Assembly: GCF_003725955.1 (NCBI RefSeq)
Contig: NZ_QIBZ01000012.1
Coordinates: 1 to 64,000, forward strand
Length of the DNA: 64,000 bases
Reading direction: 5' to 3'
Source: Slackia isoflavoniconvertens
Lineage (GTDB): Bacteria > Actinomycetota > Coriobacteriia > Coriobacteriales > Eggerthellaceae
Positions 49,485 to 53,104 of this stretch are shown here, one piece after another. Positions within the stretch are counted from its first letter, which is position 1; each line of letters opens with the position of its first letter. A program made the translations under genes and the position numbers. The notes beneath the pieces were generated by a model. The model ran no database searches. It saw nothing but the letters and a program-made list of their open reading frames with translations, and was not told the origin of the DNA.

Positions 49485-50231
49485 CTAAAACGCAACACCC
49501 AGCATAATGAGCGCAACGCACAGAGCGAAGGCCGCATAGTCTCGCGCCACGAACGGGTGGCGATCGTAGGCGCTCTCACGCGTGCGCAAGTAAAACCCCC
49601 GCTGCTCGGCAGCAAGCGCCGTGGCGTCGGTTTTGCCCACCGAAGAAAGCAATAGCGGCACGCACAAAGGCAGCATGAGACGCATTCTCTTGAAAGGGTT
49701 CTTCGTATCGTATTCGACGCCGCGCGCGGTTTGGGCCTCCATGATGGCAGTCATTTCCTGCGAGAAAATAGGCACAAAACGCAGTGCCGTGGTAAACGTG
49801 AACGCATAGCGATACGGAATATGCAGCTTCTCGACGCAGGCGTTCGCAAGATCGCCAAGCGGAGTAACCATGAGCATGAGCAACAGCGGCGTCGCCACGC
49901 CGAGCAGGCGAAGGCACGCCTTGCTGCCCGTAATAAGACCCTCATCGGTGGCAAACCCAAACACAGGCGTGCCCGCACGCATGAAAAGAACTTGCAGCAC
50001 AAATAAGATGAGCGCAAGCGGCACGAGCAGTTTCATGAGCACGACCAAACGGCCCGCAACACCCGCGTAAGCCCCCATAAGCAACGTGAACGCGAGCAGC
50101 CCTACAAGCATGGCGTAAGAATTGGTCAGAAACATCGCCGCGATAATGGAGGCGGCAAGCGCCACCTTCACCACGGGGTTCAGCTTATGCAGCAGCGTGT
50201 CGCCCGGCATATAGTCGATGACGTTAAGCAC
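49485..50231 (-). CDS. ecfT: ECF transporter T component
   Basis: This transmembrane coupling subunit holds the S component and transmits ATP hydrolysis. The 248-residue protein has about five membrane segments and two coupling motifs of the Ala-Arg-Gly type (EAQTARGVEYD and AAEQRGFYLR) in the C-terminal cytoplasmic helices. The start is GTG 50231, overlapping the end of the ATPase gene by 8 bases, with AAGGAG 10 nt upstream; this removes a long unrelated N-terminus. It is last in the S-AA'-T operon, in which transcription is controlled by a Trp-codon leader. Confidence 0.9.
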   Translation of the reverse strand: MLNVIDYMPGDTLLHKLNPVVKVALAASIIAAMFLTNSYAMLVGLLAFTLLMGAYAGVAGRLVVLMKLLVPLALILFVLQVLFMRAGTPVFGFATDEGLITGSKACLRLLGVATPLLLMLMVTPLGDLANACVEKLHIPYRYAFTFTTALRFVPIFSQEMTAIMEAQTARGVEYDTKNPFKRMRLMLPLCVPLLLSSVGKTDATALAAEQRGFYLRTRESAYDRHPFVARDYAAFALCVALIMLGVAF

Positions 50232-52020
50232 GGCAAGCCAGCTCCTTCGAAACGGCAACAATGTCCGACACTTCGGAAAGCCCCGCGAACGCCGGCGATA
50301 CCTCGGCCGCGAGCCTTTTCGCAAGTGCGATGGCCTGAGGAGGCTCGACGAAGGCGCTCTGCATGAGGCCGTCGTTCGCGAACACATCGGCGCACGTTCC
50401 GCGCCCAAGAATTTCCCCGTTCGCCATGACCACCAGGCGGTCGGCGAAATCGCTCACCACTTCCATGTCGTGGCACACCATGACCACCGCGCTTCCCGCC
50501 GCCGCCATGTCGCGCACGGTTTCCATGACCGTCATGCACTCGCGGTAGTCAAGCCCGCTCGTGGGCTCGTCGAGCACGATGATCTGCGGCTCGCCCACCA
50601 CGACCGACGCAAGCGCAACCATCTGGCGCTGGCCGCGCGACAGCGAAAACGGCGCTTCATCGAGCGGAAGGCCGAACCGCTCGCACGTCGCTTTGGCGCG
50701 CGCAGATGCCTCGTCCAGCGAAACACCCTGCAACAGCAGCCCGAACGCAACTTCGTCGAGCACGGTATCTTTGCAAATTTGACGATCAGGATTTTGGAAC
50801 AGCGTGGACACGTGACGGGCAATGCGGCTCGTGGGAACCTCGCGCGTATTCAAGCCAGCAACAACCACGTTGCCCTCAGCGGGCTTGAGCAAACCATTGA
50901 GCAACTTGGTGAACGTGGTTTTGCCCGCGCCATTCTGCCCCACAATACCGACGATTTCGCCAGGGAATACTTCAAAATCGAGCGCTCGCACCGAAGCGCC
51001 GCCGCCTGGATAGGAATAGCCCACGCCTTCAAAACGAGCCACCGGCTCGCCAGTGCGCGCAGAGGAGGCGGCGGCAACAACGGAATCACCGTCAATCGAT
51101 GAGTCGCACGGCGAACTCGGCACGACAGGCACCGCACAAGCCCCTTCAACGACGGCGCCGCGCACGCCCTCGCCCACGATGCGGGCAACAAGCGCCGCCA
51201 CCTCATCGACGGAAAGCGCCGGCCCACCCGGCTCGCACAGCCCCGCCGCCGCAAGCGAGTTCGACACGCGGGCGACGCGCGGGCTATCAACGCCAATCTC
51301 ACGCAGTCGCTCGCCATGCGAGAACACCTTGCGCGGCGTATCGTCGAATATCAGTTTTCCCTGTTCAAACACCACAACCCGACTGCAGTATTCCGAAAGC
51401 AACGCAACCTTCTGCTCAATAACCACCACGGTGATGCCGGCCGATCGGTTCACTTCGCGCAGCGTTTCGAACACAAGCGTTGAAGACGCCGGGTCGAGCG
51501 CTGCGGTGGGTTCATCGAGCACCAGAACGCGCGGGCGCAACGCCAGAATAGCCGCAATGGCAACCTTTTGCTTTTGACCACCCGAAAGCGTTGCGATTTC
51601 GCGATCGCACAAATCTTCGATGCCCACCGTTTCGAGCGCCTGCTGCATACGAGCGGGGATTTCATCGCGCGTCACGCCGAAATTCTCCAGCCCGAACAGC
51701 AACTCGTCACGCACATTCGATGCCACGAACTGAGCATCGGTATCTTGCAACACGCTTCCTACCAGGCGTGATACATCGGTTAGGGTAACCTCGCATGTAT
51801 CTTTGCCATCGACCAGGCACGCCCCGTACAGCTCGCCCGTGAAGTGGTGTGGCACCGCGCCCGACATAACGCCCGCCAGAGTCGACTTGCCGGCACCCGA
51901 CGGCCCAATGACCCCCACGAATTCGCCCTCGGCAACGGCGAGTGATACCCGTTCGAGCGCGTGACGTTGCGCGCCTGAATACGTGAACGTTACGTCTTTA
52001 ACTTCGATGATCGAATTCAT
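50224..52020 (-). CDS. ECF transporter duplicated ATPase (EcfA-EcfA' fusion)
   Basis: Two ABC ATPase domains lie in one 598-residue chain. Domain 1 (about 1-240) has Walker A GPSGAGKST, signature LSGGQKQK and Walker B VLVLDEP. Domain 2 (about 330-570) has GQNGAGKTT, LSRGQRQM and IIVLDEPTSGLD. A Ser/Ala/Val-rich linker joins them. Each domain's ATP sites form with the other, so no partner is needed. Fused EcfAA' is known in Actinobacteria. AAAGGT lies 5 nt before the ATG. It follows the S component after 84 bp. Confidence 0.93.
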   Translation of the reverse strand: MNSIIEVKDVTFTYSGAQRHALERVSLAVAEGEFVGVIGPSGAGKSTLAGVMSGAVPHHFTGELYGACLVDGKDTCEVTLTDVSRLVGSVLQDTDAQFVASNVRDELLFGLENFGVTRDEIPARMQQALETVGIEDLCDREIATLSGGQKQKVAIAAILALRPRVLVLDEPTAALDPASSTLVFETLREVNRSAGITVVVIEQKVALLSEYCSRVVVFEQGKLIFDDTPRKVFSHGERLREIGVDSPRVARVSNSLAAAGLCEPGGPALSVDEVAALVARIVGEGVRGAVVEGACAVPVVPSSPCDSSIDGDSVVAAASSARTGEPVARFEGVGYSYPGGGASVRALDFEVFPGEIVGIVGQNGAGKTTFTKLLNGLLKPAEGNVVVAGLNTREVPTSRIARHVSTLFQNPDRQICKDTVLDEVAFGLLLQGVSLDEASARAKATCERFGLPLDEAPFSLSRGQRQMVALASVVVGEPQIIVLDEPTSGLDYRECMTVMETVRDMAAAGSAVVMVCHDMEVVSDFADRLVVMANGEILGRGTCADVFANDGLMQSAFVEPPQAIALAKRLAAEVSPAFAGLSEVSDIVAVSKELACRA

Positions 52021-52104: not shown

Positions 52105-52677
52105 CTAATCTTCGACCTTCAGAGCCTTCTTAATGGGCACATAAAGCGCCTGGCACAGAATGGCGTTGAACACCGCCGTGGCGATAACAACGGGAAGCAT
52201 TGCAGCAGCAAGTTCCCCCACCACGCCGATCATGGCCATCTTGATAACCATGAAAATGCAGCCCGAAAGCACCGTGGTCACAAACGTGCCGACCAAAGGA
52301 ATAATCTTTTTCGCCGGCGTCTTCATGCCCGCCTTTACGATGAGCGCCATAACCACCGCGGCAACGCCTTCCGCTGCGAAATCGATAAACGGCGACGTGG
52401 TGGTAATTTGAATAACAGCCGCAGAAATAAGGCCAATGGCCAGGGCTTGGCCGATATTTGGACGAACCACCAAAATAGTCAGGCAGAACGCCGAGATAAT
52501 GAACTCGGGCGAAATCATGCCGCCCGTGGCGCCAGAAATCGCCTTACCCACAAACATATTCAGAATAAAGCCCGCCGCGAGCAAAATGGCGAGCAGCACG
52601 AGCGCTTTAATGTCGAGCTTTCCGCGATCGACGGTTGCGACGGTACGGGGCTGGGCGGTAGTAGCATTTTCAGACAT
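52105..52677 (-). CDS. ECF transporter S component, predicted tryptophan-specific (TrpP-like)
   Basis: This 190-residue membrane protein has five to six hydrophobic segments. The stretch GGMISPEFIISAFCLTILV followed by ALAIGLISAAVIQITTTSPF recalls the TrpP group of small tryptophan uptake proteins; this is my recollection, not a search. It is first in an operon with a fused ATPase and EcfT, which is a dedicated (group I) ECF layout. The upstream leader peptide with three Trp codons makes tryptophan or a Trp-linked compound the likely substrate. GAAAGGA lies 8 nt before the ATG. Confidence 0.85.
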   Translation of the reverse strand: MSENATTAQPRTVATVDRGKLDIKALVLLAILLAAGFILNMFVGKAISGATGGMISPEFIISAFCLTILVVRPNIGQALAIGLISAAVIQITTTSPFIDFAAEGVAAVVMALIVKAGMKTPAKKIIPLVGTFVTTVLSGCIFMVIKMAMIGVVGELAAAMLPVVIATAVFNAILCQALYVPIKKALKVED

Positions 52678-52738: not shown

Positions 52739-52769
52739 ACCTGTTAAATGCTACGAGCATTTAACAGGT
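52739..52769. repeat. Palindromic element copy C
   Basis: A perfect 14-bp inverted repeat, ACCTGTTAAATGCT / AGCATTTAACAGGT, with loop acg. It lies 62 bp upstream of the S-component gene, in its mRNA leader. Confidence 0.85.
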
Positions 52770-52822
52770 CGGGGGCAGGTTGAGTAACAGGCTGAATGAG
52801 CATTGTTCGAAGAAGTAGAGGC

Positions 52823-52842
52823 GCGTGATGCGAATGCGGTCG
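52823..52842. repeat. Inverted copy of the leader-peptide segment
   Basis: This is the reverse complement of 52957-52976 at 19 of 20 positions. On the operon mRNA it lies downstream of the terminator and could pair with codons 13-20 of the leader peptide. Confidence 0.65.
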
Positions 52843-52884
52843 ATGCCTTTTACGTTGGGGCGCCCAAGGAAGTTCGGCGCATAC

Positions 52885-52912
52885 AAAAAGGCCCTCGGTC
52901 TAACCGAGGGCC
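52885..52912 (-). terminator. Attenuator terminator of the ECF operon
   Basis: A perfect 10-bp GC-rich stem (52890-52899 with 52903-52912), loop of three, is followed by five U on the mRNA. It lies 33 nt after the stop of the Trp leader peptide and before the structural genes, as in a classical attenuator. Confidence 0.9.
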
Positions 52913-52945
52913 CCTATTCGCCAAACTATAAAAGGCGTGAGGAAC

Positions 52946-53014
52946 TCACAGTCGACCGACCGTATTCGCATCACGCCACCACCAGTTCATGAGGTTGTTC
53001 TGAATGCTGTTCAT
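52946..53014 (-). CDS. Trp-rich leader peptide (attenuation control of the ECF operon)
   Basis: This 22-codon reading frame starts MNSIQNNLMNWWWRD and has an ideal ribosome-binding site (GAAAGGAG, 8 nt before ATG). Codons 11-13 are three consecutive TGG. The mRNA around codons 13-15 (GGCGUGA, 52971-52977) can pair with UCACGCC just after the stop (52934-52940). UCGGUC in codons 19-21 can pair with GACCGA inside the terminator. A ribosome stalled at the Trp codons would break the first pairing and permit the second, preventing termination. The function is regulatory; the peptide itself is probably not active. Confidence 0.88.
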   Translation of the reverse strand: MNSIQNNLMNWWWRDANTVGRL

Positions 53015-53076
53015 GCTGGTGGCTCCTTTCGGAAAATCGTCTGCAGCGCGTGAGCGCTGCGTTTTCGCTGCCACGC

Positions 53077-53104
53077 ACTATAGCACACTAAAGCACGCTA
53101 GCAA
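53077..53104 (-). promoter_or_regulatory. Promoter of the Trp leader/ECF operon with tandem 10-mers
   Basis: The -35 TTGCTA and -10 TATAGT are 16 bp apart on the minus strand. The spacer and -10 are made of two tandem 10-mers, GTGCTTTAGT and GTGCTATAGT, which could also be an operator. Shortly downstream the leader can form a 7-bp hairpin (53043-53049 with 53054-53060). Confidence 0.7.

Follow-up and report, generated by a model that had tools for sequence, protein, structure and literature searches.

An ECF importer operon of Slackia isoflavoniconvertens is very probably controlled by a ribosome-mediated attenuator that senses charged tRNA-Trp, the importer being predicted to carry tryptophan and the organism predicted to be a Trp auxotroph. 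The operon is encoded on the minus strand of the window, by which we mean the whole stretch of DNA that was analysed (64,000 nucleotides). Sequence comparison establishes the parts of the attenuator, their fixed geometry, the covariation of a protector hairpin (P1), the restriction of the leader to this operon and the absence of markers of Trp biosynthesis. Related genomes show the switch to be conserved across the class Coriobacteriia, many of whose members add a conserved piece after the terminator. The features of the locus, in the direction of transcription, are as follows.

53077 to 53104, minus strand: promoter, TTGCTA, 16 nt, TATAGT (sequence reading and promoter scan)
53023 to 53030, minus strand: Shine-Dalgarno (SD) sequence GAAAGGAG of the leader ORF (sequence reading)
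52946 to 53014, minus strand: leader ORF of 22 codons, MNSIQNNLMNWWWRDANTVGRL (ATG at 53014, TGA at 52948-52946)
52976 to 52984, minus strand: tandem control codons TGG TGG TGG (sequence reading)
52934 to 52977, minus strand: protector hairpin P1, GGCGTGA (52977-52971) with TCACGCC (52940-52934) (folding and covariation)
52910 to 52945, minus strand: predicted antiterminator (stalled-state folds and complementarity)
52885 to 52912, minus strand: intrinsic terminator, GGCCCTCGGT-TAG-ACCGAGGGCC followed by TTTTT (reading and folding)
52818 to 52847, minus strand: post-terminator element complementary to the leader (complementarity, swap test and compensatory pairs)
52105 to 52677, minus strand: S component, TrpP-like, 190 aa (Pfam TrpP; predicted substrate tryptophan)
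50224 to 52020, minus strand: fused ECF ATPase AA', 598 aa (ECF_ATPase_1/2, two stretches each)
49485 to 50408, minus strand: ECF T component, CbiQ family (Pfam CbiQ, 92 bits)

The promoter, the SD sequence, the 22-codon leader with three consecutive Trp codons (WWW) and the GC-rich terminator with five T residues, all described in a first-pass annotation of this DNA, can be read directly on the minus strand. The -35 hexamer TTGCTA occupies 53104-53099 and the -10 hexamer TATAGT occupies 53082-53077, with a TG preceding the latter (an extended -10). A scan of the region found one promoter-like site against 0.5 expected. A TGCTATAGTGC-type -10 is also present upstream in Collinsella and at loci L003 and L006. 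The terminator stem (52912-52903 with 52899-52890) is complementary at 10/10 positions and is followed by the T-run at 52889-52885. The leader RNA folds at -81.3, compared with -55.4 in dinucleotide shuffles (z -6.2). The spacer between leader and S gene is 268 nt, longer than that of most relatives, and a 14-bp perfect hairpin, ACCTGTTAAATGCT-CGT-AGCATTTAACAGGT (52739-52769), lies between the attenuator and the S gene.

That an S-AA'-T operon follows the leader, as the same annotation had proposed, is confirmed by Pfam and ECF ATPase matches. The three genes form a complete ECF set, in which the S gene stands together with A, A' and T genes, although the T-component ORF as listed probably starts too far upstream (the matched part is residues 71-274). 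The S protein has a single Pfam match, to TrpP (PF17099), at 27.0 bits (E 4.6e-6), which is 0.2 bits short of the curated cut-off of 27.2, and 9/13 aligned S homologues match TrpP at E 0.01 or better. None of the solved structures searched was related to it in sequence. The arrangement is shared by relatives with the leader: an ECF AA' gene lies downstream in 69/71 leader loci and a T gene in 66/71, most exceptions lying on short contigs. Around 17 of the 69 leader loci have an extra stretch of about 600 nt between S and AA', so that AA' follows about 1200 nt after the S start. At L003/L029 (genome G045) and L005/L030 (genome G060) this stretch is an additional S gene that has diverged (44-47% identity), and one attenuator may therefore serve two S components.

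TrpA was found neither in the window's genome nor in 12 relatives, and chorismate-binding enzymes (TrpE) were not found in the window's genome; both were found in 14/14 control genomes. Since the genome is 97.6% complete, Trp auxotrophy of the source organism is probable. The genome has two tRNA-synt_1b genes (TrpRS/TyrRS type). A predicted auxotroph would need an importer controlled by Trp codons, which favours tryptophan as the S substrate; we infer this substrate from the protein family, the WWW leader and the missing TrpA and TrpE. In this way the attenuator helps to assign a substrate to an ECF transporter family with weak profile matches.

We examined conservation in one genome per species, which gave 80 named S loci, nearly all from Coriobacteriia and including the genera Collinsella, Enorma, Olsenella, Thermophilibacter, Parafannyhessea, Tractidigestivibacter and Atopobium. 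S homologues were present in 27/61 related genomes. The first-pass annotation had taken the region for a classical tryptophan attenuator, and alignment of the upstream regions of homologous ECF operons bears this out, as the three consecutive Trp codons and the terminator are kept. An ATG-started, SD-preceded WWW leader occurs at 71/80 named loci, all 71 of which have an SD-like sequence at the leader start. The leader at L080 has WW only, the region is cut off by a contig end at L094 and L108, and no WWW leader was found at L096, L105-L107, L109 or L110. A terminator was detected in all but six of the 71 leader loci, those six having shorter T-runs. The geometry is close to fixed: the first W is 13 codons from the stop (stop included) in 75/76 loci, and 51-63 nt separate the stop codon from the terminator T-run. 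The N-terminal half of the leader peptide is variable, while WWW and its spacing to the stop are kept. GGTCGA, which ends the leader ORF, is conserved in all loci, third codon positions included; the terminator keeps GACC around its loop, and further pairing between the two is possible.

An independent search with a 14-nt leader pattern, AACTGGTGGTGGCG, found it in 116/397 genomes of the order. All but one of the 30 pattern loci fetched lie directly upstream of an S homologue, which indicates that the WWW leader is dedicated to the S-AA'-T operon. Twelve of 14 further pattern matches (in other families or as second copies) were chance occurrences inside genes. Among Eggerthellaceae, most S homologues (about 40% identical) lack a WWW leader, and this control is thus not a general feature of the family.

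The S phylogeny places the window protein inside a Coriobacteriaceae/Atopobiaceae clade (support 100/99), whereas its genome belongs to a different family of the same order, in which members, its own genus included, carry a different S. The window S shares 81% identity with an S protein of another family within the order but only 37-41% with those of its own genus. This nesting suggests that importer and attenuator were probably acquired together by horizontal transfer. The flanking DEAD-box gene has relatives throughout the window's genus. The leaders that precede the other S lineage (L008, L018 and L021) suggest either an old association or repeated transfer.

Fold and covariation tests of P1 and the antiterminator covered 44 non-redundant loci. 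P1 has the consensus GGCGYRA, starting in the third Trp codon, paired with UYRCGCC behind the stop. RNAalifold on the whole alignment overlooked it because gaps misplace the post-stop strand, and gap-free segments with swap tests were used instead. P1 covaries: pairing between strands of the same locus averaged -12.79, compared with -11.52 for strands swapped between loci (sd 0.24), and none of 2000 permutations was as good. The hairpin adjoining the Trp codons is thereby upheld as part of the attenuator. A candidate pairing of the Trp codons with CCACCAG upstream of the ATG (I7, I14) was rejected, as it did not covary (142/2000 permutations were as good).

In folds of the RNA downstream of a stalled ribosome, the terminator 5' arm pairs upstream in 43/44 non-redundant loci. 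Its partner is often GAGYCY overlapping the UGA stop, with a small GCGC helix closing inside. In the window, GTTCCT (52945-52940) pairs with AGGGGC (52915-52910) and the inner CGCC (52937-52934) with GGCG (52922-52919). This predicted antiterminator competes with both P1 and the terminator, and when a ribosome is placed at the stop it covers the antiterminator strand, leaving only the terminator in the fold. The competing pairings proposed in the first-pass annotation thus agree with the predicted folds, which suit stalled and non-stalled ribosomes. Complementarity of the antiterminator strands was -11.1, compared with -7.75 in shuffles (sd 0.41). Their covariation was not detectable by the swap test (z 0.1 and -1.0) because both strands are nearly invariant, and the evidence for this helix is accordingly its position and complementarity. 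The exact pairs vary from clade to clade.

We infer that these structures switch the operon between termination and read-through. When tryptophan is present, the ribosome would pass WWW and reach the stop codon, which lies beside and partly inside the antiterminator strand; with that strand covered, the terminator would form and transcription would end. Scarcity of charged tRNA-Trp would stall the ribosome on WWW, where it would mask the P1 5' strand that immediately follows the Trp codons. This would leave the RNA around and past the stop codon free to pair with the base of the terminator 5' arm as the antiterminator, and RNA polymerase would continue into S-AA'-T. If the leader were not translated, P1 would form and termination would follow. 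Collinsella and its relatives rely on host and dietary tryptophan, and such a switch would therefore read the gut supply of tryptophan directly.

The post-terminator element lies just outside the region covered by the first-pass annotation and is absent from it. Its core (52842-52823) is 95% complementary over 20 nt to the leader from the Trp codons onward (52976-52957). The element occurs in Coriobacteriaceae and some Eggerthellaceae; across loci of these two families (n = 29), element and leader of the same locus pair at -42.2, compared with -36.9 when swapped (z -8.8, 0/2000 permutations as good). In Atopobiaceae no element-leader pairing signal was found (swap z 0). Among 27 anchored loci, several helix pairs are altered on both sides (T-A to C-G, A-T to G-C and G-C to T-A), and L008 and L018 keep long leader-element helices of quite different sequence. 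Per-locus shuffles are clearly exceeded in only 10/29 loci, and the claim rests on the group swap test and the compensatory pairs. In 16 loci of the Collinsella aerofaciens group the element is nearly invariant, while the spacer that follows directly ranks with the most variable stretches. Folds of the whole 5' UTR predict the leader-element pairing in most of these loci. The element is apparently under purifying selection. The two arms could also stay alike if replication corrected them as an inverted repeat, but this fails to explain an invariant element next to a variable spacer. A second intrinsic terminator was rejected, as most loci have no T-run after the element.

Being downstream of the terminator, the element cannot influence that termination event and would act only after read-through. 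Its partner is the segment held by a ribosome stalled on WWW, and the element-leader helix excludes P1. We tentatively raise the possibility, which we regard as doubtful at present, that the attenuator has a second, post-transcriptional stage in which the element and the Trp-codon region form a helix of about 20-25 bp. The pairing might take place within the read-through mRNA, or in trans if the terminated leader RNA served as an antisense sRNA. Because ribosomes stalled on WWW would obstruct it, the helix could form only after tryptophan has returned, and would then silence existing importer mRNA or target it for cleavage. The conserved complement makes this second control layer testable. To our knowledge, this complement has no counterpart among known attenuators.

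Could the Trp-rich leader instead act on how S is translated, on decay of the mRNA or by Rho-dependent termination, the terminator hairpin being no more than a structural element? The element would fit such a route, as it is conserved beyond the terminator, is relevant only in read-through RNA and pairs with the leader, and the actinobacterial ilvB and leuA leaders depart from classical attenuation (PMC1262725). We consider it unlikely, given that relatives keep a strong T-run terminator at a nearly constant distance, that the stop codon adjoins the antiterminator strand, and that Atopobiaceae keep leader and terminator with no post-terminator element.

Control by a T-box or a ligand riboswitch, with the WWW ORF incidental, is highly improbable. 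T-boxes commonly control amino-acid transporters in Firmicutes, and the leader is structured; however, WWW, its frame and its distance to the stop are conserved. No Rfam family was found at threshold in the window or upstream of S in 20 related loci, and the T-box model had no match upstream of the operon. A T-box leader (109 bits) does lie near an S homologue in a related genome (L010, 2838-3085).

Although the named loci are kin and many Collinsella loci are near copies, chance resemblance or conservation solely through recent common descent has a negligible probability and is contradicted by sequence comparison, because a WWW leader and a terminator reappear with fixed spacing at 71/80 named loci, WWW is in frame in all 44 non-redundant leaders despite widely differing N-terminal parts of the peptide, P1 and the post-terminator helix show compensatory changes, and leaders precede S proteins that are only about 40% identical (L008, L018 and L021).

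Attenuation through charged tRNA-Trp, the preferred reading, has well-known parallels. The window matches classical Trp attenuators in its SD-led ORF with tandem codons, intrinsic terminator, protector and predicted antiterminator. In E. coli trpL, control codons are followed by protector, antiterminator and terminator, with a stall logic; the window has the same order of parts and the same logic. It differs from trpL in that its three Trp codons adjoin each other and keep a fixed distance to the stop, in having no Rfam match and in serving an importer rather than biosynthesis. The TrpP tryptophan transporters of Firmicutes are under TRAP or T-box control. The window shares with them a TrpP-family S component under Trp-responsive RNA control, here predicted, but its proposed sensor is the translating ribosome instead of TRAP or a tRNA-binding RNA, and its operon supplies AA'-T genes dedicated to the S component.

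Classical Trp attenuators are known for the trp operons of Corynebacterium and Streptomyces and for Streptomyces trpS, and double or triple UGG codons occur in Trp attenuators of other Actinobacteria (PMC1262725). The window resembles these in its leader ORF with two to three tandem UGG codons, GC-rich T-run terminator and competing antiterminator; it differs in its ECF importer target, a genome without TrpA and TrpE, and the additional element after the terminator. According to PMC7298713, which cites Melior 2019, rnTrpL of Sinorhizobium meliloti is an attenuator-derived sRNA that targets the trpDC mRNA of another operon. A trans-acting leader RNA has a precedent there (PMC7298713). As with rnTrpL, termination in the window would release a trp leader RNA that may have a target for base pairing; here, however, the complementary site belongs to the same transcript and follows the terminator directly, and action in trans is hypothetical.

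In the open-access literature, whose coverage is incomplete, we found no ECF transporter described as being under leader-peptide control, in agreement with the initial remark that such control is not commonly described, and no Trp attenuator described in Coriobacteriia. Set against these systems, the proposed mechanism is a known one, whereas its type of target is new and it carries one more conserved part; leader-peptide attenuation would here have shifted from amino acid synthesis to import across a class of apparently Trp-auxotrophic gut bacteria.
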